Shown here piece by piece: positions 10,916-32,201 of a DNA stretch of 33,880 nucleotides. Source of the stretch: Rhodospirillaceae bacterium UBA6608 (GTDB lineage: Bacteria; Pseudomonadota; Alphaproteobacteria; Rhodospirillales_A; Casp-alpha2); NCBI GenBank assembly GCA_002433335.1, contig DJHY01000170.1, forward strand, positions 1,533-35,412, in the 5' to 3' direction. Under the pieces are notes generated by a model. It saw only the letters and a list, made by a program, of their open reading frames with translations, searched no databases and was not told where the DNA came from. Every line of letters begins with the position of its first letter. Within the stretch, counting starts at the first letter, position 1. The position numbers and the translations under genes are program-made.

Positions 10916-11653
10916 ATGGAAACCTCAGCGGTTATTGCCGCTTCGCGCCAAGGTGCGCTCAAACGGCAGCTAGAGATTGTCGCGAACAATCTCGCGAACA
11001 TGAGCACCAATGGCTACAAGTCGAGCCAGATGATGTTCGTCGAGCACGTCGTTAAGAGCAAAGGCGGCGAACGGCTTATCAGCCCCAACCTGACTTATAC
11101 GCGTGACATCGCGACCCGGATCGACGTCTCTGACGGCGCCATTGAAACCACGGGCAACCCGCTCGACCTGGCGATCCGCAACGACGGCTTCTTCGTCGTC
11201 CGCGACGCCCAAGGGCAGGAATATTACACCCGAAACGGTCAGTTCCGGTTGGATACCACCGGCCAGATCGTCAACCAGCAGGGCCATGCCCTGATGGCCT
11301 CGGGCGGTCAGCCGATCATCCTCAGCCCCAACGACTCCCAGATCAACGTCGCCCGCGATGGCACGTTGTCCACGGAAAACGGGCAACTAGGGAAAATCCG
11401 GGTCGTCCGGTTCGACAACCCGCAGGACATGCAGCGCACCTCGGGCGCCATGTTCACCTCGCAAAATCCGCCGACCGACATCGCCGCCCCGGACATTATC
11501 CAGGGCTCGCTGGAAGGTTCGAACGTCGAGCCGATCATGGAGATGTCGCGGATGATCGAATTGCACCGCAGCTACGACAGCGCCAAGTCGTTCATCGAGA
11601 AAGAAGACGAACGCCAAAAGTCGATGATCCAGGGCCTGACGCGCGACGCGTAA
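10916..11653 (+). CDS. flgF: flagellar basal-body rod protein FlgF
   Basis: A 245-residue proximal rod protein. It shows the axial-family N-terminal signature NNLANMSTNGYKSSQ (about residues 25-39), the central beta region with YTRNGQFRLD and the C-terminal helix GSNVEPIMEMSRMIELHRSY. No signal peptide is present, as expected for export by the flagellar type III system, and it has no cysteine. It is the first gene of the plus-strand operon, with a GAACGGGAA ribosome-binding region and a strong sigma-54 promoter upstream. The flgG gene follows after 87 bp. Confidence 0.95.
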   Translation: METSAVIAASRQGALKRQLEIVANNLANMSTNGYKSSQMMFVEHVVKSKGGERLISPNLTYTRDIATRIDVSDGAIETTGNPLDLAIRNDGFFVVRDAQGQEYYTRNGQFRLDTTGQIVNQQGHALMASGGQPIILSPNDSQINVARDGTLSTENGQLGKIRVVRFDNPQDMQRTSGAMFTSQNPPTDIAAPDIIQGSLEGSNVEPIMEMSRMIELHRSYDSAKSFIEKEDERQKSMIQGLTRDA

Positions 11654-11674
11654 AGGCCAGACACGAAACGTCAT

Positions 11675-11689
11675 CCGGCAAAACGCCGG
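11675..11689. repeat. inverted repeat in the flgF-flgG gap
   Basis: CCGGC-AAAAC-GCCGG is a perfect inverted repeat with a five-base centre, overlapping in form the GGCA palindromes near the sigma-54 promoters. No clear promoter follows it, so it may instead be an mRNA hairpin separating flgF from flgG. Confidence 0.4.
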
Positions 11690-11740
11690 GCATGAAAACG
11701 CAGCACCGATAACAAAACGGGCAAGCGAAAGGACGGGAAA

Positions 11741-12526
11741 ATGAGATCGCTTGATATTGGCTCGACGGGCATGATTGCCCAGCAGCGAAATGTCGAGGTT
11801 ATTTCCAACAACCTCGCGAACATGAACACCACCGCCTACAAACGGCGCCGGACCGAATTTCAGGATCTGATCTATCAGGATATCCGGCGCGTCGGTTCGA
11901 CCTCGTCCGACAACGGCGACGTGGTGCCCACGGGCGTGCAGCTCGGTCTGGGCGTGAAAATGGCGGCCGTGTACCGCATTCACGAACAGGGCAACCTGTC
12001 GGCCACGGACAACACCTTCGACATCGCCATCCAGGGCAAGGGCTTCTTCCAAGTCACCCTGCCGACCGGCGAAACGGCCTACACCCGTGACGGCACGTTC
12101 CAGCTGAACGAAAACGGCCAGGTCGTGACCCATGACGGTTACTTGCTGGACCCGGCCATCACGGTTCCTTCAGACGCCATCGACGTGACCATCAACGCCT
12201 CGGGCGAAGTTCTGGTGAAGATCGAAGGCCAGGTGCAGTTCTCGAACGTCGGCCAGATCCAGACCGTGAATTTCCAGAACGAACCCGGTTTGGAATCGAT
12301 CGGAAACAACCTCTACAAGGAAACCCCCGCCTCGGGCACCGCGACCACGGGCAACCCGGGCACGGAAGGCTTCGGCACGATCCTGCAGGGGTTCCTGGAA
12401 ACGTCGAACGTCAACGCGGTGGAAGAGATCTCCAACCTGATCTCGGCACAGCGCGCCTATGAAATGAATTCCAAGGTCATCCAGACCTCGGACGAAATGC
12501 TGGGGACCCTGACCTCGCTTCGGTAA
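11741..12526 (+). CDS. flgG: flagellar distal rod protein FlgG
   Basis: A 261-residue distal rod subunit, the usual FlgG length. The N-terminal NNLANMNTTAYKRRRTEFQDL, the FDIAIQGKGFFQVTLPTGETAYTRDG-like core and the C-terminal ETSNVNAVEEISNLISAQRAYEMNSKVIQTSDEM segment are all conserved family elements. An AAAGGACGGG ribosome-binding site lies immediately before the ATG. Like the other axial proteins it lacks a signal peptide and cysteine. It forms the rod that passes through the P and L rings whose genes lie downstream. Confidence 0.97.
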   Translation: MRSLDIGSTGMIAQQRNVEVISNNLANMNTTAYKRRRTEFQDLIYQDIRRVGSTSSDNGDVVPTGVQLGLGVKMAAVYRIHEQGNLSATDNTFDIAIQGKGFFQVTLPTGETAYTRDGTFQLNENGQVVTHDGYLLDPAITVPSDAIDVTINASGEVLVKIEGQVQFSNVGQIQTVNFQNEPGLESIGNNLYKETPASGTATTGNPGTEGFGTILQGFLETSNVNAVEEISNLISAQRAYEMNSKVIQTSDEMLGTLTSLR

Positions 12527-12569
12527 TCCGTGACAACGGTTGACCGACAGGCTCGGAAAGGAATGTGAC

Positions 12570-13604
12570 ATGACTGCTCGCAAAATGATCATCGCCGCCG
12601 CAATGGCTGTCGCCCTGGTTCCCATGGCGTCGCTATCCGCGATCGGCGCGACCAAGACCACCGCCTCGGCGGAAGCCCATGCCAAAACCGACGCGGCGAA
12701 ACCCGAAATGTCGGTGCCGCTGTTGCGCGATGCAGTCACCGTCGATGACAAGGTCATCTACCTGGGTGACCTGTTCATCAATGCCGGCCCCTACGCGGAC
12801 TCCGTCGTCGCTTATGCGCCGGCGCCGGGCGAACGGGCGATCTTCGATGCCCGCTGGCTGTATCGTGTGGCCCGCGCCTATCGCATGAACTGGCGTCCGT
12901 TGACGGCCCGTCAGCAGATCATCGTCGAACGGGTCAGCCAGATCATCGAACGGTCCGAAATCGTCGATACCCTGATGGCGGCCCTATACGAAAAAGGCGC
13001 CGATCCGGAATCCGAACTGGAACTGTCGACGCAGCTGACCCGCGTGCATATCGCGGGCACGGCCCAGCCGACGATCGGCGTCGACGACATCACCTACGAT
13101 CCGCGCTCGCAGCGGTTCGCGGCCGTCGTCTCGATCCCGAAGAACGACCCGGCGGGCGAACGCCTGCGTCTGACCGGGCGTCTGTTCCCGGTGGTCAAGG
13201 TTCCGGTGCCGTCGCGCATTCTCGCCCGCAACGACGTGATCGGCGAACGCGACATCCGCTGGATCCGCCTGCGGACCGACCGGATCATGCCGGACACGGT
13301 GACCAAGGTCGAAGACATGATCGGCATGGCGCCCAAGCGCAGCCTGCGGCCCGACGAAATCATCCGTCGCTCGGACATTGAGCGCCCGATCCTGGTCGAA
13401 CGCGGCTCCCTCGTCACGGTCACCCTGACCCATGGCCCCATGGCCCTGACGGCTCAGGGAAAGGCGCTGGAACACGGTGCGCTGGGCGATACGGTCCGGA
13501 TCATCAACCGACGCTCCAAGACCGTGTTCGAAGGCGAAGTCGTCGGCCCCGGTCGGGCCAAGGTCCAGATCGCCGCGATCCGAGAATTGGCTCAGAACCG
13601 GTAA
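12570..13604 (+). CDS. flgA: flagellar P-ring assembly chaperone FlgA
   Basis: A 344-residue periplasmic chaperone for P-ring assembly. The signal peptide is MTARKMIIAAAMAVALVPMA and onward. The C-terminal SAF-type region begins near VPVPSRILARNDVIGERDIR and ends GDTVRIINRRSKTVFEGEVV, both typical of FlgA. It is longer than enterobacterial FlgA (about 219 residues), as in other alphaproteobacteria. I chose the ATG at 12570 because AAGGA stands eight bases before it; the upstream TTG at 12540 has no such site and would spoil the signal peptide. Confidence 0.93.
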   Translation: MTARKMIIAAAMAVALVPMASLSAIGATKTTASAEAHAKTDAAKPEMSVPLLRDAVTVDDKVIYLGDLFINAGPYADSVVAYAPAPGERAIFDARWLYRVARAYRMNWRPLTARQQIIVERVSQIIERSEIVDTLMAALYEKGADPESELELSTQLTRVHIAGTAQPTIGVDDITYDPRSQRFAAVVSIPKNDPAGERLRLTGRLFPVVKVPVPSRILARNDVIGERDIRWIRLRTDRIMPDTVTKVEDMIGMAPKRSLRPDEIIRRSDIERPILVERGSLVTVTLTHGPMALTAQGKALEHGALGDTVRIINRRSKTVFEGEVVGPGRAKVQIAAIRELAQNR

Positions 13605-13682
13605 CGAACAGCAACTAGAACGCGCACGAAAGGCAGACGGTCCCCTTCCCTCACTCTAACGGGACCAGCAAGGAGAATTCCG

Positions 13683-14456
13683 ATGAACGGCTCGATCACT
13701 TCTCAAACCCGCCGCCTCATTCGCACCACCGCCGTGGTTGCGGTCCTGGCGGGCGCGCTGACCGGCTGCAACACCCTGACCCGCCTGTCGCAGGTCGGCG
13801 AGGGCCCGGCGATCACGCCGGTCCAGAACCCGACGGCGCGGCCGGATTACAAGCCCGTCTCGATGCCGATGCCGGCGCCGAAGATGGCCGAAGTCAACCC
13901 CAACTCCCTGTGGCGAGCCGGTGCGCGGGCGTTCTTCAAGGATCTGCGCGCCAAACAGGTCGGCGATATCGTGACCGTGCAGATGACCTTGGATGACAGC
14001 GCCAAGCTGGACAACAAGACCGAGCGCGATCGCACCGACGCGGAAAAAGCCAACCTGACGAACATTCTGGGCTTCGAAGGCGAATTGACCCGCTACCTAC
14101 CCGATGGCGTCAGCGCCGCCAACATCGCCAACTTCGGCAACACCCATGCGACCTCGGGCGACGGCACGATCGAACGGTCGGAAAGCATCAGCCTGACCTT
14201 CGCCGCCGTGGTGACCCAGGTCCTACCCAACGGCAACCTGGTGATCATGGGCCGCCAGGAGCTGCGGGTGAACGCCGAATTGCGCGAACTGATGGTAACC
14301 GGCGTGGTCCGCCCGTCCGACATCGACTCCGACAACAAGATTTCCCACGAGAAAATCGCCGAAATGCGCGTCGCCTACGGTGGCCGCGGCACCCTCAGCG
14401 ATCTGCAGCAACCCCGCTGGGGCATGCAGCTTTGGGACATTCTCTTCCCGTTCTAA
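13683..14456 (+). CDS. flgH: flagellar L-ring lipoprotein FlgH
   Basis: A 257-residue outer-membrane L-ring subunit. The lipoprotein signal ends in LTGC with Cys29 as the lipid site. The conserved FlgH core includes SLWRAGARAFFKDLRAKQVGDIVTVQ, the LVIMGRQELRVNAELRELMVTGVVRP strand set and the C-terminal YGGRGTLSDLQQPRWG. An AAGGAG ribosome-binding site precedes the start. It is the last gene of the flgFGAH unit and is followed by a strong terminator 75 bp on. Confidence 0.97.
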   Translation: MNGSITSQTRRLIRTTAVVAVLAGALTGCNTLTRLSQVGEGPAITPVQNPTARPDYKPVSMPMPAPKMAEVNPNSLWRAGARAFFKDLRAKQVGDIVTVQMTLDDSAKLDNKTERDRTDAEKANLTNILGFEGELTRYLPDGVSAANIANFGNTHATSGDGTIERSESISLTFAAVVTQVLPNGNLVIMGRQELRVNAELRELMVTGVVRPSDIDSDNKISHEKIAEMRVAYGGRGTLSDLQQPRWGMQLWDILFPF

Positions 14457-16768: not shown

Positions 16769-17830
16769 GTGAGAACCGATCTGCCTCGCACCAAGCGTCT
16801 GTTCGCGGCCCTGGCCGTGACGGCGTTGACCGTCGTCGCCGGCGCAAAAGCCCAGGCGGCCGACATTGAATTGAACCTCTATTCCTATCGCCAGCCCTTT
16901 CTGATCAAGCCGCTGACCGACGCCTTCACCAAGGAGACGGGCATCAAGGTGAACACCGTGTTCGCCAAAAAAGGCATGCTCGAAAAGATCAAGGCCGCCG
17001 GCGACAACAGCCCCGCCGACGCGGTCGTGACCGTCGACATCGGTCGCTTGTACGCGCTGAAGGAAGCGGGCGTTCTGCAGTCCATCAAGTCCGATGTCCT
17101 GGAAAAGAACATCCCGGCCCATTTCCGTGACCCGGAAGGCATGTGGTATGGCCTGACCTCGCGTGCTCGTGTCGTGCTGGTGTCCAAGGAACGGGTCAAG
17201 CCGGGCGAAATCAAAACCCTGGAAGACCTCGCCGATCCGAAGTTCAAGGGCAAGATCTGCACCCGCTCGGGCAAGCATGCCTATAACGTCGCCCTGATCG
17301 CGTCGATGATCGCCCACCACGGCGAGGAAGCGGCCGAAAAATGGCTTGATGGCGTGAAGGCTAACCTGGCCCGCAAGCCGCAAGGCAACGACCGCGCCCA
17401 AGCCAAAGCCGTGTACGAAGGCGTCTGCGACATCGCCCTGTCCAACAGCTATTACATGGGCAAGATGATGACCAACGACAAAAAGCCCGAGCAAAAGGAA
17501 TGGGCCAATGCCGTTCGCCTGACCTATCTGAACCAGGACGGTCGCGGCAACCACATGAACATCTCGGGCGCCGCCGTGACCAAAAGCGCCAAGCACAAGG
17601 AAGCCGCGGTCAAGCTGCTGGAGTTCCTGTCGTCCGACGAAGCACAGCGCATCTACGCCGAGGATAACCAGGAATACCCCGTGAAGCCGGGCATTCCGTT
17701 TTCCAAGGTCGTGAAATCCTGGGGCGACTTCAAAGTCGACACCCTGTCGCTGGAAAAAATCGCCAAGCTGCGGCCCGCCGCCTCCCGACTGGTGGACAAG
17801 GTAGGGTTCGACGACGGCCCCGGCAGCTGA
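16769..17830 (+). CDS. ferric iron ABC transporter, periplasmic binding protein (FbpA/FutA type)
   Basis: A 353-residue periplasmic Fe(3+)-binding protein. A signal peptide (LFAALAVTALTVVAGAKAQA) precedes the mature start ADIELNLYSYRQPF, with the YSYR tyrosine characteristic of FutA/FbpA. The iron-ligand tyrosine pair is in VCDIALSNSYYMGKMM. The segment YGLTSRARVVLVSKERVKPGE is also typical. Start is GTG at 16769 with AAGAAGGAT upstream; a later start would cut the signal peptide. The permease and ATPase genes follow, but a terminator-like hairpin separates them, so this subunit is probably made in excess. Confidence 0.93.
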   Translation: MRTDLPRTKRLFAALAVTALTVVAGAKAQAADIELNLYSYRQPFLIKPLTDAFTKETGIKVNTVFAKKGMLEKIKAAGDNSPADAVVTVDIGRLYALKEAGVLQSIKSDVLEKNIPAHFRDPEGMWYGLTSRARVVLVSKERVKPGEIKTLEDLADPKFKGKICTRSGKHAYNVALIASMIAHHGEEAAEKWLDGVKANLARKPQGNDRAQAKAVYEGVCDIALSNSYYMGKMMTNDKKPEQKEWANAVRLTYLNQDGRGNHMNISGAAVTKSAKHKEAAVKLLEFLSSDEAQRIYAEDNQEYPVKPGIPFSKVVKSWGDFKVDTLSLEKIAKLRPAASRLVDKVGFDDGPGS

Positions 17831-17859
17831 TTCGTCCCACAGCGAACCAGCAGGCAGAG

Positions 17860-17899
17860 ACGCTGCGGGGTTTCCCCCCGCGGCGTTTTCTGCTTTTTT
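17860..17899 (+). terminator. intra-operon terminator/attenuator between the binding protein and permease genes
   Basis: An eleven-pair stem (17860-17870 with 17876-17886, one G-U pair, five-base loop) is followed by TTTTCTGC and six T residues. Partial read-through would lower permease and ATPase expression relative to the binding protein. Confidence 0.82.
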
Positions 17900-17928
17900 G
17901 ACGCCCGCAACCTGGGAGCCTTCTAGAC

Positions 17929-19638
17929 TTGTCGCACCCCACCGCCGTCGCTGACCGGCCCGCCACCCGCGCGCTAAGCCGATTCCTACCGTCCGACCGA
18001 TGGGGCATCGCGACCCTGGTCGTGGCGCTGTTCGTAGCGACGCCGTTGATCGCCGTGGCGATCATTGCCCTGACCCCGGCCCCCGATATCTGGAAGCACC
18101 TCTACAACACCGTCCTGTTCGGCTATGTCCGGCGGACCGTCACCCTGATGTTCGGGATCGGCCTGGGGACCTTCATCCTGGGCACCGGCACGGCTTGGCT
18201 GGTCACCATGTGCCGCTTTCCCGGGCGTGGCTTCTTCAACTGGGCCCTGATCCTGCCGTTGGCGGTGCCGACCTATATCCTGGCCTTCGTCTTCACCGAT
18301 CAATTGGAATACGCCGGGGCGGTTCAGGTCGCCCTGCGCGACATGTTCGGCTGGCGCAATCGTCAGGACTATTGGTTCCCAGAGATCCGCTCCATGGGCG
18401 GGGCGATCACGGTCATGACCCTGGTCCTCTATCCCTATGTCTACTTGCTGGCCCGGGCCGCGTTTCTGGAACAATCCGTCTGCGTGATCGAAGTCAGCCG
18501 GACCCTCGGCAAAAACGCCTGGCAGAGCTTCTGGCATGTCGCCCTGCCCTTGGCCCGCCCAGCCATCGTGGTCGGCATGACCTTGGCGATGATGGAGGCC
18601 TTGAACGACTTCGGGACCGTCGATTTCTTCGGCGTGCGAACCTTCACCGCCGGGATCTATGACGTCTGGCTGAACATGGACAGCATTTCGGGCGCGGCTC
18701 AATTGGCCGCCGTGTTGATGATCTTCGTGATCGCCTTGATCATGCTGGAACGCAGCGCCCGGCGCGGCCAAAAATATCATCACACCTCGACCAAGATGCA
18801 GGCCCTGCCCGGGTATAAACTGCGTGGCGCCCGCGCCGGTCTGGCCATCGCGTTCTGCGCCCTGCCCATCGTGCTCGGCTTCATCCTGCCGGCCATGGTC
18901 CTGTTGTCCTACTCGGTGGTGTTCTTCGACGTGGCCTTGAAGGCCAATTTCCTGACCATCACCTTGAACAGCCTGACCCTGTCCTTCGGCGCGGCGGTGG
19001 CCGCCGTCGGCATCGGATTGGTGCTGGCTTACGGCCTGCGGATGGGGTCCGGCCCCCTGCCCCGTGCCGCCGTGCGCTTCGCTTCGGTCGGCTATGCCGT
19101 TCCCGGCGCGGTCCTGGCGATCGGCGTGATCATCCCATTGGCGAAATTCGACAACGCGATCGATGCACTTTCCAGCCAGTTGTTCGGCGTCTCGCCCGGA
19201 TTGCTGTTCAGCGGCACCGTCGTCGCCATCCTGTACGGCTACCTCGCGCGTTTCCTGGCCTTGTCTTTCGGTACGGTCGAGGCCGGCCTGGGTAAGGTTT
19301 CACGCAACATGGACGGCGCCGCCCGGACCCTGGGGGCCACGCCGTTCCAGACCATGGCCCGCGTCCATTTTCCCCTGGTTCGGACCAGCCTGATGACCGC
19401 GGGGCTGCTGGTGTTCGTCGACTGCATGAAGGAATTGCCGATCACGATCATCCTGCGGCCGTTCGGCTACGACACTTTGGCAACCTTCGTGTTTCAATAC
19501 GCCTCGGACGAATTGTTCGAAGAATCCGCCCTGGGGGCCTTGACCATTGTCGCCGCAGGCTTGATACCCGTGGCTATCCTAGCCCTGACCACCCTGCGCA
19601 GCCGACCCGGCCACGCCACAGGAAGCTGTTCGGCATGA
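17929..19638 (+). CDS. ferric iron ABC transporter, permease (FbpB type)
   Basis: A 569-residue inner-membrane permease made of two fused halves of about six helices each, the FbpB/ThiP arrangement. Each half has an EAA coupling loop: EVSRTLGKNAWQSFWHVALP (about 186-205) and GAARTLGATPFQTMARVHFP (about 464-483), which contact the ATPase. The start is TTG at 17929 with GGGAG upstream; no nearby in-frame ATG precedes the first membrane helix. Its stop overlaps the ATPase start (ATGA). Confidence 0.92.
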   Translation: MSHPTAVADRPATRALSRFLPSDRWGIATLVVALFVATPLIAVAIIALTPAPDIWKHLYNTVLFGYVRRTVTLMFGIGLGTFILGTGTAWLVTMCRFPGRGFFNWALILPLAVPTYILAFVFTDQLEYAGAVQVALRDMFGWRNRQDYWFPEIRSMGGAITVMTLVLYPYVYLLARAAFLEQSVCVIEVSRTLGKNAWQSFWHVALPLARPAIVVGMTLAMMEALNDFGTVDFFGVRTFTAGIYDVWLNMDSISGAAQLAAVLMIFVIALIMLERSARRGQKYHHTSTKMQALPGYKLRGARAGLAIAFCALPIVLGFILPAMVLLSYSVVFFDVALKANFLTITLNSLTLSFGAAVAAVGIGLVLAYGLRMGSGPLPRAAVRFASVGYAVPGAVLAIGVIIPLAKFDNAIDALSSQLFGVSPGLLFSGTVVAILYGYLARFLALSFGTVEAGLGKVSRNMDGAARTLGATPFQTMARVHFPLVRTSLMTAGLLVFVDCMKELPITIILRPFGYDTLATFVFQYASDELFEESALGALTIVAAGLIPVAILALTTLRSRPGHATGSCSA

Positions 19639-20735
19639 TCCCGCCGCTAACGACGCAACAGACGATGAACAATACGACCGCGCCCGGCCTGCATATGCAG
19701 AACGTATCCCACGCCTTCGGAAGCCACGAAGTCGTCATTGACGTCTCGGTTTCCGTCGAAGCCGGCGAACTTGTGTGCCTGCTGGGTCCGTCCGGCTGCG
19801 GCAAGACCACGCTGTTGCGTTTGGCCGCCGGACTGGAAGACCTTCAACGTGGGCAAATTCGCTTTGGCGACGAGGTCATCGCCGATTCGTCGCAGGGCCG
19901 CCAGGTCCCGCCCGAAGGCCGCAACGTCGGCCTGATGTTCCAGGATTTCGCCCTGTTTCCCCATCTGACGGTGATGGAAAACATCGCCTTCGGTCTGCCG
20001 CAGAAGAACGCCGGGCGGGTCGGCTGGGTGCGGGACACTCTGGCCTCGATGGGATTGGCCCAATACGCCGATGCCTATCCGCATGTTCTGTCCGGCGGAC
20101 AGCAGCAGCGCGTCGCCTTGCTGCGCGCCCTGGCGCCGACGCCGCGTGTCCTGTTGTTGGACGAGCCCTTTTCCGGCTTGGACGTGAACCGCCGGGCGCA
20201 AATCCGCCAGGACACCTTCCAAATCCTGTCCCAGGCCGGGATCGCGACCTTGATGGTGACCCACGACCCGGAAGAAGCCATGTTCATGGCGGACCGCATC
20301 CTGGTCATGCGTGGGGGCCGCATCGTCCAGGCGGGACGACCGATGGATATCTATTTCAAGCCGGAAGATGCTTTCGTGGCCGAGTTATTCGGCCCGATCA
20401 ACGCCCTTCCCGGCCAGGTCTCCGGCAGCCAACTGCAGACGCCGCTGGGTGCTTTTCCCGCGGGCAGTCAGCAAGACGGCGCGACGGTCCGGGTGCTGAT
20501 CCGGCCCGAGGCCCTGGTCCTATCCCTCCCGGCAGAAAGCGCGCAAGGGCCCGCCTTGACGGTGATGTCGGCGCGTTCGCTCGGGCGCAGCACGCACCTG
20601 ACCTTGTTGCTGGAAGACGGCGCGGAAGGGACGGTTCTCAGCGCCCGCATGCCGGGGGTATTCCTGCCCGATGTCGGGTCCCGCGTTCATGCGCAGGTCG
20701 CCGCCGAAAGCCTGTTGGTTTTCCCGGCGGAATAA
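19635..20735 (+). CDS. ferric iron ABC transporter, ATP-binding protein (FbpC type)
   Basis: A 366-residue ABC ATPase powering the Fe(3+) importer. It has Walker A GPSGCGKTT, the Q-loop in MFQDFALFPHLTVMENIAFG, signature LSGGQQQRVALLRAL, Walker B VLLLDEPFSGLD and the H-loop VTHDPEEAMFMADR. A C-terminal regulatory TOBE-like domain follows from about residue 270 (IRPEALVLSLP). It overlaps the permease stop by ATGA, giving translational coupling; an internal ATG 11 codons in is an alternative start. Its end lies in front of the flgE control region with no terminator between them. Confidence 0.94.
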   Translation: MIPPLTTQQTMNNTTAPGLHMQNVSHAFGSHEVVIDVSVSVEAGELVCLLGPSGCGKTTLLRLAAGLEDLQRGQIRFGDEVIADSSQGRQVPPEGRNVGLMFQDFALFPHLTVMENIAFGLPQKNAGRVGWVRDTLASMGLAQYADAYPHVLSGGQQQRVALLRALAPTPRVLLLDEPFSGLDVNRRAQIRQDTFQILSQAGIATLMVTHDPEEAMFMADRILVMRGGRIVQAGRPMDIYFKPEDAFVAELFGPINALPGQVSGSQLQTPLGAFPAGSQQDGATVRVLIRPEALVLSLPAESAQGPALTVMSARSLGRSTHLTLLLEDGAEGTVLSARMPGVFLPDVGSRVHAQVAAESLLVFPAE

Positions 20736-20868: not shown

Positions 20869-20925
20869 ACTGATTTGTTGGGAAAAAACCAAAGAGGGCG
20901 GCCCGGACGCGGGGCGCGACGTAAA

Positions 20926-22548
20926 ATGGGTTTGAGCGTTTTTCAGCAAGCGACCATGGCGATGATGAGCCAGGCGCACAAACTGAGCACCATCTCGCAA
21001 AACGTGGCCAACCTGAACACGGATGGCTACAAGCGCACCGACACCGAGTTCCAGACCCTGATGAACAAGGGTTTCACCTCGATCGGCGCGACCACCGACG
21101 ATGGCGCTTCCGGGACCACCCACAATGATTTGGGCGGCGTCAACGCGATCGACCTTCAGCGCATCACCCAGCAAGGCCAGGTACGCACCACGGACCGCAA
21201 CCTCGACGTCGCTATTATCGGCGACGGGTTTTTCATGGTTTCGCCGGACCTGAACGTGAACGGCAACATTCAGTACACGCGGCGCGGATCGTTCGATATC
21301 AGCGTCACCGACCTGACCGACACCGTGACGATGGACGACGGCAACACGATCACCGTTAACCAAGGCTACCTCGCCGATCAATTCGGCAACTACCTGCTTG
21401 GATACGAAGTGAACGCGGACGGCACCTTCACCCTGGGCACGCCGGCCCCGATGCGCGTCGACCAATTCGCATTCGAAGAAATCGGCGAAGAAACGACCAC
21501 TGCCTCGTTGGAGGTCAACCTGCCCGCCGACGATGCCGACGGCACGGTCCGGACCGGATCGATCAAAGTGGTCGATTCCGGCTACAACTCGCAAAACCTG
21601 CGGCTCGATTTCACCAAGGCATTCGGCACGGAAAACCTGTGGGATTTCCGCGTCCTAGGCGACAATATCACCAGCATCACGGCCTCGCCGGGCGCGACTT
21701 ATACGCCCGTCACCACGACGTTGAACGACAACGTCGTCAGGTTCTCGACCGTGGCGGGCGGCGGCGGCGTGATCACCGTCTTCAACAACACCAATCCGAG
21801 TGGCGCACCGCAAGCGGGCGCGCAACTGGCCGGCACGTTCGCTGGATTGAAAGCGGGCGACACCATTACGATCGCCGGTAGCGCCGGTAACGACAATACC
21901 TATACGATCAAAAGCGTGTCCGATAACGGTGCGGAAATTACCCTCGATTCCGCCGTCGCGCTGGCAGCCGACGAAACGACGTCATCGGCGATCACGTTTT
22001 CGTCCACGGCAAATATCCCGCAACAGTTGGAATTCGCCAGCGACGGCTCTTTGTCCTCGGACTCGCTCTACACCTTCGACGTCACGTTCGATAACGGCGA
22101 AACCGCCTCGTTCGAATTCGATGTCGGCACCTTTACGCAATATTCCGGCGACTACGATTTCGGCTATTACCAGCAGAACGGCGCCGAAGCCGCCGCCCTA
22201 TCCAACCTGTCGTTCGGATCCGGCGGCGAAATCTATGGCGAGTTCACCGACAACACCCGCCGCGCCTTGTTCAAAGTCCCCTTGGCGATCTTCCCGAACG
22301 CCGACGGCCTGCAGATGACGTCGGGGCAGAACTTCCTTGAGACGGAAGCGTCCGGTGAGCCCAACCAGGTCTTCGCGGACGAGTCCGGCTTCGCCGAATT
22401 CCTCGGCAATGCGCTGGAAGGCTCGAACGTCGATCTGGGCACCGAAATGAGCCGCCTGATCGCGGCGCAAGCGGCCTACAACATCGCCTCGACAACCTTC
22501 AAAACCGCCGACGAGATGCTTCAGGAAGCCGGAAACCTGAAACGATAA
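20926..22548 (+). CDS. flgE: flagellar hook protein FlgE with an inserted beta domain
   Basis: A 540-residue hook subunit. The N-terminal axial signature is SQNVANLNTDGYKRTDTEFQ; the core strand VAIIGDGFFMVSPD and the C-terminal FlgE region (GSNVDLGTEMSRLIAAQAAY and onward) are conserved. Residues about 270-365 form an extra beta-rich domain with AGDTITIAGSAGNDNTYTIK and SVSDNGAEITLD, matching units repeated in FlgL. No cysteine or signal peptide is present. ATG at 20926 is chosen because it lies downstream of the predicted transcript start and begins the axial helix. It has its own sigma-54 promoter and a strong terminator. Confidence 0.93.
   Translation: MGLSVFQQATMAMMSQAHKLSTISQNVANLNTDGYKRTDTEFQTLMNKGFTSIGATTDDGASGTTHNDLGGVNAIDLQRITQQGQVRTTDRNLDVAIIGDGFFMVSPDLNVNGNIQYTRRGSFDISVTDLTDTVTMDDGNTITVNQGYLADQFGNYLLGYEVNADGTFTLGTPAPMRVDQFAFEEIGEETTTASLEVNLPADDADGTVRTGSIKVVDSGYNSQNLRLDFTKAFGTENLWDFRVLGDNITSITASPGATYTPVTTTLNDNVVRFSTVAGGGGVITVFNNTNPSGAPQAGAQLAGTFAGLKAGDTITIAGSAGNDNTYTIKSVSDNGAEITLDSAVALAADETTSSAITFSSTANIPQQLEFASDGSLSSDSLYTFDVTFDNGETASFEFDVGTFTQYSGDYDFGYYQQNGAEAAALSNLSFGSGGEIYGEFTDNTRRALFKVPLAIFPNADGLQMTSGQNFLETEASGEPNQVFADESGFAEFLGNALEGSNVDLGTEMSRLIAAQAAYNIASTTFKTADEMLQEAGNLKR
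21733..22020 (+). repeat. single copy of the FlgL-type beta repeat inside flgE
   Basis: This encodes about residues 270-365 of FlgE. The core AGDTITIAGSAGNDNTYTIK, then SVSDNGAEITL, follows the same pattern as the FlgL units, G-x-x-I-T-I-x-G-T-x-x-N-D-x-T-Y-T-V-x-S-V, with a hydrophobic lead-in strand (VVRFST). Confidence 0.7.
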
Positions 22549-24825: not shown

Positions 24826-27108
24826 ATGGGCGATATTACACAGGCATTGCGAGCGGCGCAGAGCGGCCTTCTGGCGAACCAGACGGCGCTTAATATCGTT
24901 TCTCAGAACGTCGCCAACGTGAATACCGTCGGGTATTCGCGCAAGATCATTCAGCAACAGTCCGTCGTGCTGTCCGGCACGGGCGCCGGCGTCGACATTG
25001 CCGAATTCACGCGCTCGGTCGACCAGGGCCTGCTCAAGTCGATCCGTCAGGAATTGGCGCAGCTGAACAAGAACTCGGTCCAGGTCAGCTACTATGACCG
25101 GATCCAGGAAACCTTCGGCACGCCGGACGACAATACCTCAATCGCGCATATCCTCGCCGAATTGCAGCAGGCGGCCGAACTGCTGGCCGTTTCGCCCGAC
25201 CGGATCCTCGAACAGGGCGAAGTCGTCCGTCAGGCCCAGCTGGCGACGGAAAAGCTCGCCACCATGAGCGACACCATCCAGGAACTGCGCCTGCAGGCGG
25301 ACCAGCAAATTACGTCGATCGTCACCGAAATCAACGAACTGACCGCCGATATCGATCAGCTGAACGACGATATCATTCGGTTCGGTTCGACCGGCAACGA
25401 CACGACCGACCTGCAGGACCAGCGCGACAACAAGATCGATCGCCTGGCCGAACTGATCGACATTCAGTATTTCCAGCGCGGCGACGGCGACGTCGTGGTG
25501 TTCACGACCTCGGGCCTGACCCTGGTCGATACCATTCCGCCGGAAATCACCCATACCTCCGCCGCGGCAATGAGCTCGACCTCGACCGTCGCCGGCGGGC
25601 AGATCGACGGGATTTACGTCGGCGAACGCCTTGCCATCAACGACCTGACGACGCTGGCCCGCGGCGGCCAGTTGGCCGGATTGCTGGAGATGCGCGACGA
25701 CGTCCTGCCCAACCTGCAATCCCAGTTGGACGAACTGGCGGCGCAGTTGCGCGACCAGGTCAACCTGGTCCACAACCGCGGCACACCCTACCCCGGCCAT
25801 CAGGAACTGACCGGCGAGCGGATTTTCGCCCTGCCGCAAGAACAGACCATTTCGTTGGGCACCGGCGACGACACGGTCATCGTCCTGACGGATTCAACGG
25901 GAAACGAGACTCTGTCCGTGCGCTTGTCGCAAATCCTGAGCGGCTCCGCCTATGGCCAGACCTATGGCGACGGCACGGACGACAGCGGCGCCATCACCAT
26001 CACCGAACTGGCCGCGCGTATGGAAGATTTCTTCCAACTGAACGGCGCGCCGTCGGCTTCCGTGACGCTGAACTCGCAAAGCCAGTTGTCGATCAATCTG
26101 AACAACACATCCATGGGTTTCGGGTTCCGTGATGAGAGCGGCTCCACCAAGGGCGGCGACGTCGCCGATGCGGACATCAAGTTCGACAAGGACGGCGACG
26201 GCACGGTCGACGAAACGATCAAGGGATTTTCCAACTTCTTCGGCTTGAACAACCTGTTCGTCGATGGCTTGGCGGAAAACATTTTCGAAACCAATGTTCT
26301 GAGCTCCAGCTTCGTCAGCACGGCGGCCGTCTTGAACATTCGCGATTCAAACACGCCGGATACGGGCTCCGGACCGGAATACTTGGGACAGATCGTCATT
26401 CCTGCCGGCAGCACGCTTCAGGAAATCGCCGACCTGATCAATAACGGCGGGATCGACACCAACGGCACGTTCTATTCGGCCGGGGCCAGTTTCGGCGGCG
26501 TCGACAACGTTACCGCCACCGTCGTTTCCGACGGGTCCGGCTACCGCCTGCGCATCTCGCACGACGACGGCCTGTCGATGACCGTGACGCTGGATACCTC
26601 GAGCGGCAGCACACTTCTGTCCGAACTCGGCATGCACGAAGCGGACGTCCGCGTCTCCTCGGCCCTGTCGGTTCGATCCGACATCGTTTCCTCCCCCGGC
26701 CTGGTATCCACGGGCCGCCTGGAGTTCGATTCCGAGAAAGGCGCCAACGGTGAGTACCTGACCGCGCCGGGCACCAACGGCGTTGCCGAGGAACTGGCGG
26801 CGCTGTTGTCCAGTTCAAATTCGTTCTCCGTTTCCGGCGGCTTGCCGTCTTTGAACGTCAGCTTCGCCGAGTACGGATCGTCGATCATCGCTCGCAATTC
26901 CTCGTTGGCGGACATGAACGACCGTCAGGTCACAAGCCAAACATCCTTGACGGAGAGCCTGAAATTCAAGTCCGATAGCATCCGAGGCGTGAACCTTGAC
27001 GAAGAACTGTCGAATTTGATTGTGTTCGAACAAGCCTATTCCGCCGCCGCGCGCGTCATTTCCGTGATTCAGGAAATGATTCAACGCCTGGAAGAAGCCG
27101 TTGCCTAG
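24826..27108 (+). CDS. flgK: hook-filament junction protein FlgK
   Basis: A 760-residue hook-associated protein, longer than enterobacterial FlgK (about 550). The N-terminal axial helix (ALRAAQSGLLANQTALNIVS then QNVANVNTVGYSRK) and the FlgK D1 helices (LQDQRDNKIDRLAELIDIQY) are clear. The C-terminal helix is VNLDEELSNLIVFEQAYSAA. The extra length is in the central variable region, which contains an Asp-rich loop DKDGDGTVDE (residues 454-463) resembling a calcium-binding loop. No cysteine is seen. It is 34 bp after flgN and 11 bp before flgL. Confidence 0.95.
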   Translation: MGDITQALRAAQSGLLANQTALNIVSQNVANVNTVGYSRKIIQQQSVVLSGTGAGVDIAEFTRSVDQGLLKSIRQELAQLNKNSVQVSYYDRIQETFGTPDDNTSIAHILAELQQAAELLAVSPDRILEQGEVVRQAQLATEKLATMSDTIQELRLQADQQITSIVTEINELTADIDQLNDDIIRFGSTGNDTTDLQDQRDNKIDRLAELIDIQYFQRGDGDVVVFTTSGLTLVDTIPPEITHTSAAAMSSTSTVAGGQIDGIYVGERLAINDLTTLARGGQLAGLLEMRDDVLPNLQSQLDELAAQLRDQVNLVHNRGTPYPGHQELTGERIFALPQEQTISLGTGDDTVIVLTDSTGNETLSVRLSQILSGSAYGQTYGDGTDDSGAITITELAARMEDFFQLNGAPSASVTLNSQSQLSINLNNTSMGFGFRDESGSTKGGDVADADIKFDKDGDGTVDETIKGFSNFFGLNNLFVDGLAENIFETNVLSSSFVSTAAVLNIRDSNTPDTGSGPEYLGQIVIPAGSTLQEIADLINNGGIDTNGTFYSAGASFGGVDNVTATVVSDGSGYRLRISHDDGLSMTVTLDTSSGSTLLSELGMHEADVRVSSALSVRSDIVSSPGLVSTGRLEFDSEKGANGEYLTAPGTNGVAEELAALLSSSNSFSVSGGLPSLNVSFAEYGSSIIARNSSLADMNDRQVTSQTSLTESLKFKSDSIRGVNLDEELSNLIVFEQAYSAAARVISVIQEMIQRLEEAVA

Positions 27109-27119
27109 GGATTTAACAG

Positions 27120-29516
27120 ATGACCAGAATCTCCAGCGCCGCCGCTAACAGCATCCTGATCGGGCGTTTCCTGCAAACGCAAAGCGATCTGCATAAGCTT
27201 GAGACCCAGGTTGCGACCGAAAAGGTCAGCCAGACCTACAGCGGCCTTTCCCTGTCGTCGCAACGGCTGATCAACATCGAGAACACCAAGAGCACGCTTG
27301 AGCGCTTCAACTCCAACAACCTTCAGGCGCAGTTGCGCGTCGATCTGCAGACCACCGCGGTCGACGGCATCAGCGACGCAATTTCCGACTTCCGCGATCT
27401 GTTGTTGGATTTTTCGAACGGCGACATCAGCGATCCGGAGCGGGTCGAACAGATTCAATCCGATGCGTTCCGCGCCCTGACCAACATCCAGAACCTGCTG
27501 AACACCGAAGCGGACGGCCGATACATCTTCGGCGGAGGCACCATCCGCACGGAACCGGTCAACTTCGGCATCACTTCGGTTTCCGCTTTTCAGGAACTGT
27601 ACGACGGCGCCCGGGTGACCTTCCCGACGACGCGCGACGCGCACCTGGAAGATTTCTCGATCTCGCGTGATTCCACCACGCTGAACCCGGCCTACCTGAC
27701 ATTCGAGCAGACCGACGCCGGCACGGGCAAAAGCCGGATCAATTCGTCTTCGGCGCAGTTCGCGAACATTACCGCCGGCTCGACAATCACCATTTCCGGC
27801 ACGGTCGATGGCGTCAACGACGGCACCTATACGGTCGATTCCGTCGACCCCAATGGACTGTGGATCGATGTTAAGACCGAACAGCTGACCGACGAGACGA
27901 CGCCGGTGTTTGCCACCTTCAGCTATCCCAGCGAAGACGACCCCCGGATCACAGTCGAATCATCCGCCGAAGTCGTGTTCGACCGCCGCACCAATACGAT
28001 CACCGCATCGGTTGCCGGCGCGCTCGACGACATTCCGGACGGCAGCGTGTTCACCGTTTCCGGCACGACCGACAACGATGGCACCTATACGGTGTCCAGC
28101 AACGACGGCACGGACCTGGTCATCGAATCCCAACGCCTGACCACGACCGGCGGCAGCGGTGCGACCATCCATACCCCCGGCGGCGTGAATACCCTGACCT
28201 TCTCCGCCGGCACGGGCGCCGATGGCGAAGACCAGTTGGTCGCCGTTACGGCCGGGACCTATAGCGCGCTGGAAAGCGGGCAAAAGATCAAAATCAACAA
28301 CACCAATACGGAAAACGACGGGAAGGTGTTTACGGTCAAATCCGTCTCCGCCGACGGCACGACGATCACCTTGGACGCCGACGACAGCGTCGACACCTCC
28401 GTCGCGACGGTGACCACCGGCGTCGTGTCCAGCCGCCCCGAATTGTTCTCGTTCAATGCGGCTGAACGGAATTTCTATTTCGACGCCGGTGCGGGCGGCG
28501 GCAACACGCTGACCTTTACCGACAACGGCGCCAACGCCGACACCATCACTCTGGCCGGCGGCAGCTTCACCGACGCCCAAGGCAACCCCATCGCGGCGGG
28601 GACGCGGATTACCGTGACCGGCACGGGTTCGAACAACGCGACCTACACGGTCGCCTCGGTTTCGGCAGACGGCCTGACGGCGACGCTGCTCGCCACGGAC
28701 GCGGTCACCAACGAAGGCCCGGTCGTGGCCGGTGTTCTGGCGGGCACGGGTTCGATTACCTTTGCCGACAACGACCCGAGCGCGGATTCGATCACCCTCG
28801 GCGGCGGTTTCTTCCGCGATGCCGACGGCAATAACCTTCCGGCGGGCACGCAATTCACCCTGGCCGGCACCGGCACGGCGAACGACGGCACGACCTTCAC
28901 CATCGGTTCGGTTTCGTCCGATGGGCGCACGGCGACCTTGATCCAGACCGATACGATCGATGACACCACGCCGACCGTCACCGCCGGTACGATGAGCGCG
29001 CCCAACACCATCGGCACGATTTCGTCGAGCAGCTATTACAGCGGCGACACGGTGTCGCATACTCATCGTGTCAGCTCGACCCAATCTTTCGAATTCAACA
29101 TCACGGGCGTCGATCCCGCCTTCGAGAAAGCCATTCGCGGCATGTTCCTGATCATGCAGGGGCAGTACGGCACCGAGGGCGGTCTGGACCAGAACGAAAA
29201 CCGGGTCGGCGAAGCCCTTTACCTGATGGACGACGCCCTGGACCGGACCAATACCAGTCCGCCGCCGTTCGGCGAGGAGCTCGATAGCAATATCGAGGAA
29301 ATGCAGATCATCCTGGGTTATCGCGCCGTCATGTTGAACGACGTGCAGACGACCAACGACCAGCTGATCGCCTATCTGGAAGGCGACATCGCGGAAACCG
29401 AAAACGTCGATCCGCTGGAGGCGATTACCCGGTTGCTGGACAAGCAACGCGTGCTGGAAGCGTCCTATCAGACCTTCGCGCGTGTCCGCCAATTGAGCCT
29501 GACCAGCTACATCTAA
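27120..29516 (+). CDS. flgL: hook-filament junction protein FlgL, enlarged by five beta repeats
   Basis: A 798-residue FlgL, more than twice the usual size of about 300-320. The N-terminus (FLQTQSDLHKLETQVATEKV) and the flagellin-like D1 segment with RALTNIQNLLNTEADGRYIF and GGG are typical. The C-terminal end is LGYRAVMLNDVQTTNDQLIA to ASYQTFARVRQLSLTSYI. Between about residues 190 and 640 lie five beta-rich units. Their cores begin near residues 219, 307, 386, 493 and 575, each of the form G-x-x-I-T-I-x-G-T-x-x-N-D-G-T-Y-T-V-x-S-V. The repeats should project outward from the junction; their function is unknown. No cysteine is present. Confidence 0.93.
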   Translation: MTRISSAAANSILIGRFLQTQSDLHKLETQVATEKVSQTYSGLSLSSQRLINIENTKSTLERFNSNNLQAQLRVDLQTTAVDGISDAISDFRDLLLDFSNGDISDPERVEQIQSDAFRALTNIQNLLNTEADGRYIFGGGTIRTEPVNFGITSVSAFQELYDGARVTFPTTRDAHLEDFSISRDSTTLNPAYLTFEQTDAGTGKSRINSSSAQFANITAGSTITISGTVDGVNDGTYTVDSVDPNGLWIDVKTEQLTDETTPVFATFSYPSEDDPRITVESSAEVVFDRRTNTITASVAGALDDIPDGSVFTVSGTTDNDGTYTVSSNDGTDLVIESQRLTTTGGSGATIHTPGGVNTLTFSAGTGADGEDQLVAVTAGTYSALESGQKIKINNTNTENDGKVFTVKSVSADGTTITLDADDSVDTSVATVTTGVVSSRPELFSFNAAERNFYFDAGAGGGNTLTFTDNGANADTITLAGGSFTDAQGNPIAAGTRITVTGTGSNNATYTVASVSADGLTATLLATDAVTNEGPVVAGVLAGTGSITFADNDPSADSITLGGGFFRDADGNNLPAGTQFTLAGTGTANDGTTFTIGSVSSDGRTATLIQTDTIDDTTPTVTAGTMSAPNTIGTISSSSYYSGDTVSHTHRVSSTQSFEFNITGVDPAFEKAIRGMFLIMQGQYGTEGGLDQNENRVGEALYLMDDALDRTNTSPPPFGEELDSNIEEMQIILGYRAVMLNDVQTTNDQLIAYLEGDIAETENVDPLEAITRLLDKQRVLEASYQTFARVRQLSLTSYI
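27690..28990 (+). repeat. five tandem beta-domain repeats within flgL
   Basis: Cores: AGSTITISGTVDGVNDGTYT (219 on), DGSVFTVSGTTDNDGTYTVS (307 on), SGQKIKINNTNTENDGKVFT (386 on), AGTRITVTGTGSNNATYTVA (493 on) and AGTQFTLAGTGTANDGTTFT (575 on). Each is followed by an SV-x-x-D/N-G-type turn and a T-x-T-L strand. Spacing is 79-107 residues. Units 3-5 also share a lead-in with a LTF or ITF strand. Divergence between copies is high, so this is an old amplification. Confidence 0.82.
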
Positions 29517-29543
29517 TAGACGGATCGCGTAACCCACGGAAAA

Positions 29544-29583: not shown

Positions 29584-29665
29584 CGTCATTAACCTTATGA
29601 CAACTTAATTTCTCGATGATCGCATGCTAAGTTGCGGTATCTGACAGTTGGGAACGCATCGGGAA

Positions 29666-30145
29666 ATGCCTCCGTACGAGAATCAGGTTAAGAAATACGA
29701 ACGTCGCCCCGTCGCCGGTAATCCGGCGCAAACGGAAGCCTGGGCGCTGCTCGAAGCAGCCAAGCGCATGGCGATGTCGATCGTCGACAGTGAAGGTGAT
29801 CCGAAGCAGATCAAGAACACCCGCAAAGCCGCTTTGCGGTTGAACTGGCGTTTGTGGACGATCTTTCAGGCAGAACTGACGACCGAGCGCGCGGAAGTGC
29901 CCGAGGAAATTCGGATCAACATGCTGACCCTGTGCAAGTTCGTCGACAAGCACACGGTTGGGGCACTGGTGAATCCGACCCCCGAAGCAATGACCGTTCT
30001 GATCGACATCAACCGGAATATCGCCGCCGGCTTGGCGCAAATACCGGATGATGGAGAACGGGATGCCCCCGCACCTCAGGCGCAACAGAATACCGGCGCG
30101 GACGCTCTGCCGCCGCAGCGCATCAACATCGATACCGAAATTTAA
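29666..30145 (+). CDS. flaF: flagellar biosynthesis regulator FlaF
   Basis: A 159-residue FlaF. The family pattern is ENQVKKYERRPVAGNPAQTE AWALLEAA at the N-terminus, then the core LRLNWRLWTIFQAEL, CKFVDKHTVGALV and the ending LIDINRNIAAGLAQ. A Pro/Gln-rich tail of about 35 residues is longer than usual. FlaF promotes flagellin production and, in Caulobacter, works opposite FlbT, which represses flagellin mRNA translation. Neither flbT nor a flagellin gene is in this window. I use ATG at 29666 with ATCGGGAA upstream, not the TTG at 29648. Confidence 0.88.
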   Translation: MPPYENQVKKYERRPVAGNPAQTEAWALLEAAKRMAMSIVDSEGDPKQIKNTRKAALRLNWRLWTIFQAELTTERAEVPEEIRINMLTLCKFVDKHTVGALVNPTPEAMTVLIDINRNIAAGLAQIPDDGERDAPAPQAQQNTGADALPPQRINIDTEI

Positions 30146-30257: not shown

Positions 30258-32201
30258 ATGACTCAAGAAGCATCCTCCGAGGACTTTTACAACAACGTCA
30301 AACTGGCGTGCGCCTTGATCCTGCAGCGCAAAACGCAGGAAGGCCTGGCCATCATCGATCAGTTGCAAAAGCAACGACCCGAATCAGCCGAGGTTCCTTA
30401 TCTGATGGGGCTTGTCGCCATTACGATGGACGAGTACGGCAAGGCGTTGGTGCTGATCGAAGAAGCCCATGAACGCGATCCGGAATGCTACGAATATTCA
30501 GAGGTTCTCGCCAATTTGCACGTCCGGGTGGGCAACCTGAACGAAGGCGTCTATTTCGCCAAACTGTCGACGACGCTCGAACCTCACCCCTATGTCTATG
30601 ACCTGATCCCGGCGGACCTATCGAACTTCTTCGTGTCCCTGGAGCAAACGGCTGCGCCCCGGCACTACATCTACGGCTACGTGAAACTCAATAAAAGCGA
30701 GTTCACCGACGCTATCCAGGAGTTCGAGCGGCAACTGTCGCTTGATCCCGACCATGCCCTGGCGCATCGCGACATCAGCGCGGCCTACCTCGCCGTCGGG
30801 CAATACGAACGGGCGATCTCGCATATCCAGAAAGCTATCGCCCTGACCCCGGAAGATCCGATGTGTCACCTGCGGGCCGGTGCAATCAGCAAACGGATCG
30901 GCGCTTTCGAGCCGGCGTTATATCACTTCGAAAAGGTCCTTTCGGCTGAAGAGGGCAATCTGGAACTCGCCTCGGCAGCCTACGCCCTGGCTGCAGCCTT
31001 GCCGCAAATCGATGATGAAACCTTGGCGAAATTAAAGGGGCTGCTGGACGGCTTCGCAGAAGATACGCCGGAGCTTCCAGAAGAAGCAGCCCCCGCATCG
31101 GTTCGCAAGGACCGGATTCACGTCTGCTACGTTCTCAACAATTCATGGCACTACGACACCGCGGCATTGCTGGAGCCGATCCTGCAAGCCCATGACCGCA
31201 GCAAGTTCGAAATCTATCTTTATCAGCAAAATCAAGGACGTAGCGCGTTCATCCAGCAGTTGAACAATGCCGCCGACCTGGAACGCAAGCTGTGGGAAGT
31301 CGACAACGAAATGGCTACGATCCTGATCGGGGGGGACGACATCGACGTTCTGGTGAACATGTGCGCCCCTGGATCGGACAACCGCGCCACGCTGTTCGCC
31401 ATGAAACCGTCAACCATTCAGGTCGGTTTCCATTGCGGAAATTTCGGCGCAAGCATGCCCGGCATTACACATGTCGCGGCTGATCCCTCGACGGAAAAGG
31501 CGGTCGCCGCCCATCTGACCGATGACCAGAAACTTCTGTCCGTTCTACCGGGCCTGTGGGCGCAGAAGCCGTCCTATCTGTTGCCCGAAGTCAGCGCATC
31601 GCCCGCGCAGACCTCCGGACAGGTCACCTTCGGCGCGCTATGCGACCCTGAAACCTTCACGGAAGCCGCCCTCGCACTTTATGTCGAAGCACTGAAGCAA
31701 ACCCCCAACAGCCGCCTTTTGTTCGGCGCGGCCGGGAACTGCGACGGCTATCCGGCGCGGCGCCTGAACGAAATGCTGGGTGATACGGGTCTGTTGGAGC
31801 GGATTTCCGTATGGCCCGACAAAGGTGTCGGCGAGAAATGGATCCCCAACCCCAACTATTGGCGCGAGGTCGATCTGTTCCTCATCCCGGGCGCTTTCCC
31901 CAATCCGTTGCGGGCCGCCGATGCCCTATGGATGGGCGTTCCCGTCATCACCTTGACCGGACCTCGCCCCTTGGAATGCATGGGCACGAGCATCTTGGCT
32001 TCCGCGAACAAGCTGCAGTGGGCCAAGGCCTCGGCAGAGGAATGGCTGGCCTGCGTTGCTGAATTGGCGGCGGATACAGAGGCGCTGAATACCCAGCGCA
32101 TGTCGCTGCGGGAAGAACTACGTGCAACGGCCTTGTTCAACCCTGCCGCGCACGTGCAGGCGCTGGAAGCCCTGTATACAGAATTGGTGGATAACCGCTA
32201 A
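30258..32201 (+). CDS. TPR protein with a GT41 (O-GlcNAc transferase-like) glycosyltransferase domain
   Basis: A 647-residue protein. Residues about 1-250 are TPR units (for example ALAHRDISAAYLAVGQYERA and AISHIQKAIALTPEDP). Residues about 290-640 resemble the catalytic part of SPINDLY/OGT-type GT41 enzymes. They contain LFAMKPSTIQVGFHCGNFGA and ITHVAADP; the donor-site region VDLFLIPGAFPNPLRAADAL and WMGVPVITLTG; and then GTSILASANKLQWAKASAEE. The usual NGGTTTCDALWMG glycine/threonine stretch is altered to PNPLRAADALWMG. Cytoplasmic; its place next to flaF suggests it glycosylates flagellin or another filament protein. That substrate is inferred. Confidence 0.78.
   Translation: MTQEASSEDFYNNVKLACALILQRKTQEGLAIIDQLQKQRPESAEVPYLMGLVAITMDEYGKALVLIEEAHERDPECYEYSEVLANLHVRVGNLNEGVYFAKLSTTLEPHPYVYDLIPADLSNFFVSLEQTAAPRHYIYGYVKLNKSEFTDAIQEFERQLSLDPDHALAHRDISAAYLAVGQYERAISHIQKAIALTPEDPMCHLRAGAISKRIGAFEPALYHFEKVLSAEEGNLELASAAYALAAALPQIDDETLAKLKGLLDGFAEDTPELPEEAAPASVRKDRIHVCYVLNNSWHYDTAALLEPILQAHDRSKFEIYLYQQNQGRSAFIQQLNNAADLERKLWEVDNEMATILIGGDDIDVLVNMCAPGSDNRATLFAMKPSTIQVGFHCGNFGASMPGITHVAADPSTEKAVAAHLTDDQKLLSVLPGLWAQKPSYLLPEVSASPAQTSGQVTFGALCDPETFTEAALALYVEALKQTPNSRLLFGAAGNCDGYPARRLNEMLGDTGLLERISVWPDKGVGEKWIPNPNYWREVDLFLIPGAFPNPLRAADALWMGVPVITLTGPRPLECMGTSILASANKLQWAKASAEEWLACVAELAADTEALNTQRMSLREELRATALFNPAAHVQALEALYTELVDNR

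Follow-up and report, generated by a model that had tools for sequence, protein, structure and literature searches.

What are the five repeated units that enlarge a FlgL-type flagellar protein, and why does a hook-type protein of the same cluster carry a sixth? The question is raised by a 33,880-nucleotide stretch of the genome of Rhodospirillaceae bacterium UBA6608 (GenBank contig DJHY01000170.1, positions 1,533 to 35,412), hereafter called the window, which encodes a flagellar gene cluster. A preliminary description of this DNA had reported five copies of a small beta domain in FlgL and one in FlgE, and had suggested their recruitment from phages. The features concerned are the following.

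27120-29516, + strand: flgL-type gene, 798 residues, with a five-unit insert
27729-27929, + strand: FlgL unit 1 (residues 204-270)
27972-28169, + strand: FlgL unit 2 (residues 285-350)
28191-28427, + strand: FlgL unit 3 (residues 358-436)
28506-28736, + strand: FlgL unit 4 (residues 463-539)
28749-28997, + strand: FlgL unit 5 (residues 544-626)
20926-22548, + strand: FlgE-type (hook-like) gene, 540 residues from the ATG at 20926
21766-22005, + strand: single unit of the FlgE-type protein (residues 281-360 from that ATG)

The ATG at 20926 was assumed as the start of the FlgE-type protein; the mechanically defined open reading frame begins at 20875.

One beta domain in two axial proteins

The FlgL core is otherwise normal, with five degenerate units of approximately 70 residues inserted between its two helical halves, from residue 204 to residue 626. 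As the protein misses the curated score of TIGR02550 (86.9 bits versus 127.2), and as its top NCBIfam match, to a flagellin-named model, is also below cut-off (110.1 bits versus 217 curated), we call it FlgL-type on the basis of its fold, with a FlgL-type helical core, and of gene order, flgL coming directly after flgK. A 525-residue open frame lies antisense to flgL (27960-29537, minus strand) and is probably a by-product of G+C-rich codon use.

A profile built from the five FlgL units alone recovered the FlgE copy with 34.4 bits (expect value, E, of 1e-9), the best of 1000 shuffled FlgE sequences reaching 8.1 bits. The link drawn earlier between the two proteins is thereby borne out, and the FlgE unit maps within the interval first given for it, 21733-22020. 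In leave-one-out analyses, FlgL units 1 to 5 scored 31.3, 21.8, 33.2, 58.3 and 49.4 bits, respectively, and the FlgE unit 41.0 bits; the shuffle maxima were 9.2-12.3, and for every unit none of the 1000 shuffles was as good. With a profile devoid of window units, which still includes units from close relatives, the five FlgL units were found at independent E-values of 6.3e-14 to 1.7e-19 and the FlgE unit at 1.3e-15, and no other frame among the 210 window frames scanned had a value below 2. Chance Thr/Gly-rich repeats are ruled out by the shuffle and leave-one-out tests. On these profile comparisons, the six units are very probably homologous, all being copies of a single small and portable beta domain. 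The repeat motif initially proposed holds as an approximate pattern, with just four columns (G, T, S and G) invariant across all six units.

AlphaFold2 models of both whole proteins (mean predicted local distance difference test values of 80.8 and 81.2) were compared by strand order, without superposition. The order is alike in all six units, in agreement at that level with the anticipated common fold, and differing strand orders among the six segments are ruled out by these models.

The carrier of the sixth unit had been called the hook protein FlgE. Its place in the FlgE/F/G family stands (TIGR03506, 218.4 bits versus 70.25 curated), but the FlgE equivalog models, which define the hook subunit, are missed (best 187.9 bits versus 365 curated), and its gene adjoins flgI. 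In two relatives, G006 and G010, a different, larger FlgE with a unit of its own adjoins flgD; in these genomes, the two whose neighbouring genes were tested, flgD is adjacent in both and fliK also in one. The flgD-linked hook gene of these relatives thus differs from the gene beside flgI, and the 'FlgE' of the window may be a second hook-type protein.

The unit sits within domain D2 of this protein. Among the best 120 of 177 FlgE homologues, and counting the matches listed, 30 of the 32 nearest (P0121-P0152) have a detected unit, against none of the 88 others. One close homologue, P0135, aligns over its full length across the unit with a score below threshold. Around positions 250-360, six distant homologues without the unit are largely gapped (P0155, P0169, P0171, P0172, P0182, P0187), and four others hold different sequence there (P0158, P0167, P0189, P0198). 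Whether the unit belongs regularly to FlgE D2 is therefore answered only in part.

Occurrence and copy number among bacteria

The records of FlgL relatives are mostly titled Rhodospirillales or Rhodospirillaceae and include Magnetospirillum, Magnetovibrio and Magnetospira. Two records titled Acidobacteria bacterium (L047) and Asaia bogorensis (L048) nevertheless have a unit-type FlgL, possibly by misbinning. Among the best 120 of 325 FlgL homologues, four units are commonest (75 proteins), followed by five (22) and three (18); six were found in two proteins, and two, seven and eight in one each. We also scanned 74 genome loci, drawn with a unit-bearing FlgL query so that FlgL proteins without units are under-sampled. 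Copy-number and best-hit counts come from L001-L063 and do not include L064-L074, for which the scan listed no unit; the best-hit comparison also covered the window itself, 13 further regions and the 120 viral loci. The 50 complete FlgL frames of L001-L063 have one to eight copies, in 11, 9, 10, 9, 8, 1, 1 and 1 frames, respectively. In the Magnetospirillum loci L050 and L056, FlgL has two units.

Whole genomes extend the range of carriers beyond the two axial proteins first described. All 24 genomes selected for known FlgL loci match the unit profile. Of the 129 matches listed in them, 96 are in FlgL, 13 in FlgE-type proteins (11 genomes), 13 in a second FlgE (11 genomes), one in FlgK and six in frames of 4404-10153 residues (5 genomes). 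These classes are based on frame length and place; we read 10 of 11 second-FlgE frames, all of which start like hook FlgE, and two of five giant frames, one giant frame being covered by a domain scan. Of 289 genomes drawn from the class, 15 gave a match. In 12 of these it falls in FlgL by profile; G020 itself accounts for another (FlgL and FlgK), one match is in a tail-tube protein (L260, see below) and one is unassigned (L262).

FlgE-type proteins have up to three units. The FlgK proteins of a Magnetospirillum (L050, 7026-9986) and of a Rhodospirillaceae metagenome-assembled genome (L055, 396-3410) have one unit each, and these are reciprocal best hits. The giant frames of 4404-10153 residues (L109, L110 and frames in G002, G003 and G006) hold one or two units; L109, the one scanned, contains many LamG, Ig and cadherin-type domains.

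Relatives in phage tail proteins

The preliminary description had pointed to similar strands in phage tail and capsid decoration proteins. A phage-built profile, phrog_1236, named as a head protein, matches FlgL (2.6e-10) and the FlgE-type protein (4.4e-5), as well as 26 of 48 units at E ≤ 0.01. Among genomes, 22 of the 24 give a match to it, and the 14 control genomes give none. The match takes up just about 40-70 of the 177 positions of the profile, corresponding to one domain. PF05354 (Phage_attach) gives 27.8 bits with FlgL against a gathering threshold of 26, but no single stretch passes; the FlgE-type protein scores 14.9 bits, and 2 of 48 units match at 0.01.

To collect viral carriers, viral contigs were scanned by a DNA pattern coding for NDGTYTV, which yielded at least 120 loci. 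The likeness beyond the motif was assessed by masking this heptad in all 120 loci (118 stretches, 1180 shuffles). After masking, 40 of 118 stretches scored at least 5 bits, versus 12 of 1180 shuffles, and 21 scored at least 10 bits, versus no shuffle. The remaining 78 stretches fell below 5 bits, indicating that many motif matches are without further likeness. A box, [LM][TAS][DN]E, occurs in 51 of 186 bacterial units, in 7 of 21 strong phage stretches and in none of 45 weak ones.

The identified phage carriers are tail-tube, tail-sheath (L149), baseplate and fibre-like proteins, the baseplate wedge protein of L229 having a masked score of 9.8 bits. Three carriers have an Lcl_C domain (L176, L200, L198). 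In one domain scan, phrog_1236 matched 4 of 10 viral carriers, and several scanned carriers were without any family. The tail part of the initial suggestion is thus sustained, while a head role is based on the name of phrog_1236 only. The tail-tube protein of L142 (11938-13128; PF18906) has two tandem units, and that of L260 (1168-2343; PF18906, 9.9e-43), which comes from a genome of the class, has one. The two proteins align, and both units of the former fall in the same part as the single unit of the latter; this one-unit difference at the same place resembles, on a small scale, the situation of FlgL.

Could this likeness have arisen by convergence instead, between Thr/Gly-rich beta sequences that share a short motif? 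The viral set was chosen by that very motif, and two thirds of its stretches score poorly once the heptad is masked. A tblastn search of 50,697 named phage records, with the units of the window as queries, gave no match at E ≤ 0.01, and a viral Foldseek search with the FlgL model gave very low template modelling scores (0.06-0.16), which were computed over the whole model and say little on a single unit. We nevertheless consider convergence very improbable, given the excess of masked stretches over shuffles, the distribution of the box between bacterial units and strong and weak phage stretches, and the matches of phrog_1236 to both flagellar proteins and to nearly all genomes but no control. 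These comparisons support a module inside phage tail proteins that is homologous to the flagellar units beyond the search motif. The tblastn result indicates that the relation is distant, and best hits stay mostly within their own group (46 of 54 phage units hit phage units, 180 of 182 FlgL units hit FlgL units). The resemblance noted initially is real; transfer may have gone from phage to flagellum, as then proposed, or the other way.

A possible collar around hook and junction

We regard as established the homology of the units, their presence or absence as whole units, the fact that more than one axial protein carries them in related bacteria, and their homology with phage tail modules. As to their role, we tentatively favour a portable beta domain that would form an outward, fixed collar bracing the hook and junction. 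The units are inserted where accessory outer domains sit, in the middle of the FlgL core and in D2 of the FlgE-type protein. FlgK and FlgL layers are 11-mers (PMC12221982). With the FlgL ring of 11 subunits of the species studied, five units each would amount to about 55 domains encircling the junction, in addition to those of the hook-type protein. Facing outward, they might pack against one another as a fixed collar, which would reinforce hook and junction against torque and shear.

The history of the array is pertinent to this reading. For each of the window FlgL units 1 to 5, the best hit is the same-numbered unit in another species, which rules out recent homogenization of the array in this lineage. 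Across 22 close homologues, the mean identities of units 1 to 5 are 0.79, 0.66, 0.74, 0.63 and 0.77, and those of the N- and C-terminal core 0.73 and 0.71. In the FlgE-type protein, the unit (0.71) resembles the remainder of D2 in conservation (0.68 and 0.66), the terminal parts being higher (0.81 and 0.88). Positional orthology and core-like identity indicate that the array is old and held by selection in this lineage, and fixed contacts fit an old, position-specific array better than do interchangeable beads or a fast-changing shield.

Alternatively, the units would be weak carbohydrate-binding domains, whose many copies around junction and hook would give multivalent attachment to the glycans of particles, surfaces or cells. 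We judge this adhesive role rather unlikely, yet a serious rival to the collar. It draws on the other carriers of the module, which include fibre-like and LamG proteins, and on its possible fold. The nearest fold of the unit may be the E1-FCCH/endosialidase beta-barrel, with a weak likeness; the endosialidase barrel contains a sialic-acid site (PMC12632334, preprint). By sequence, PF16190 (E1_FCCH) fails to find the units: none of the 24 genomes has a match above the curated cut-off, and the lone match (E of 0.016) is in a frame of 18,810 residues outside the unit-carrying frames. Sequence profiles of the units searched against the PDB gave best E-values of 0.017 and 0.013, with an unrelated-looking protein, and at 0.01 the units match none of the Ig-like Pfam families. 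Of note, a FlgE homologue of 927 residues (P0207) has a precomputed PF16190 match, so that FlgE of another lineage may have acquired a domain of similar appearance.

The units might also be tolerated passengers, inserts that spread at a permissive site because outer loops accept them, and that have no specific task. Copy number is labile among lineages, and cassettes can be copied: in L014 (2601-4832 and 9289-11193), three units lie in the FlgE-type protein, and the nearest relatives of its units 2 and 3 are the units of the same number in that genome's own FlgL (57% and 65% identity, versus 42-45% for the next). These identities suggest that a two-unit cassette was copied between the genes, so copying appears to have occurred at least once. 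Against passengers speak the unit identities in the window's lineage, which are close to those of the core, and the retention of the FlgE unit in nearly all of the closest homologues; we hold this explanation to be quite improbable.

Several observations count against the bracing collar. The FlgK of the window, placed between hook and FlgL, is without a unit, which makes direct contacts between hook and junction units uncertain. The range of one to eight copies in relatives indicates that no fixed number is needed. The core is better conserved than FlgL units 2 and 4, and the predicted template modelling scores of the two AlphaFold2 models are just 0.60 and 0.52.

Comparable arrangements are known. 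In Xanthomonas FlgL and Burkholderia FlgK, D2 is an outward beta domain inserted in the helical D1 core; a reinforcing role at the junction was proposed for D2 of the former, and contacts with outer FlgE domains for FlgK D2 (PMC6155364). By their description, these are single beta-sandwiches, unlike the module found here, which has phage relatives and comes in one to eight copies. Large FlgL proteins are already known, with a 750-residue chain in the Campylobacter junction. Giant flagellins are enlarged by tandem domain extensions through duplication (PMC6248924), but these belong to the filament, whereas junction and hook-type proteins are concerned here; the likeness is one of tandem enlargement, not of compared repeats. 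Phage tail tubes and sheaths carry accessory beta domains on a hollow tube, including Ig-like domains, and these were proposed to stabilize the tube or to bind carbohydrates weakly, with horizontal exchange also proposed for the Ig-like ones (PMC8718954, PMC9230969). The present module is itself found in tail-tube and sheath proteins, yet as one sequence family also on flagellar axial proteins. Our literature search, whose coverage excluded most subscription journals, found no report of one module common to FlgL, FlgE and phage tail proteins.

A broader possibility, which we consider doubtful, is that of a domain that decorates hollow helical protein tubes in general. It would have moved between the tail tubes and sheaths of tailed phages and the hooks and junctions of flagella, and would have multiplied as tandem copies on either side (from one to two between the two related tail tubes, from one to eight in FlgL), serving an identical mechanical or adhesive purpose on two unrelated tubes. 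The outer domains that hook and junction proteins carry are commonly viewed as unrelated add-ons; here one family occurs in junction and hook-type proteins and, rarely, in FlgK, providing a concrete case of a surface domain common to phage tails and flagella. The series of one to eight whole units represents a natural copy-number series for the question of bracing versus adhesion.

The flagellar cluster of the window comprises FlgF/FlgG-type, FlgA and FlgH genes at 10916-14456, followed by the FlgE-type gene, flgI, a FlgJ-like rod-binding gene, a weak FlgN-like match, flgK, flgL and flaF. Two of these flank flgL:

24826-27108, + strand: flgK (PF22638), between the FlgE-type gene and flgL, without a unit (-1.2 bits with the unit profile)
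29648-30145: flaF

ABC transporter genes for a solute-binding protein, a permease and an ATPase (16769-20735) are found inside the cluster, between flgH and the FlgE-type gene. After flaF, a gene at 30258-32201 codes for a 647-residue protein with TPR repeats and a Glyco_transf_41 match, possibly a flagellin glycosyltransferase.
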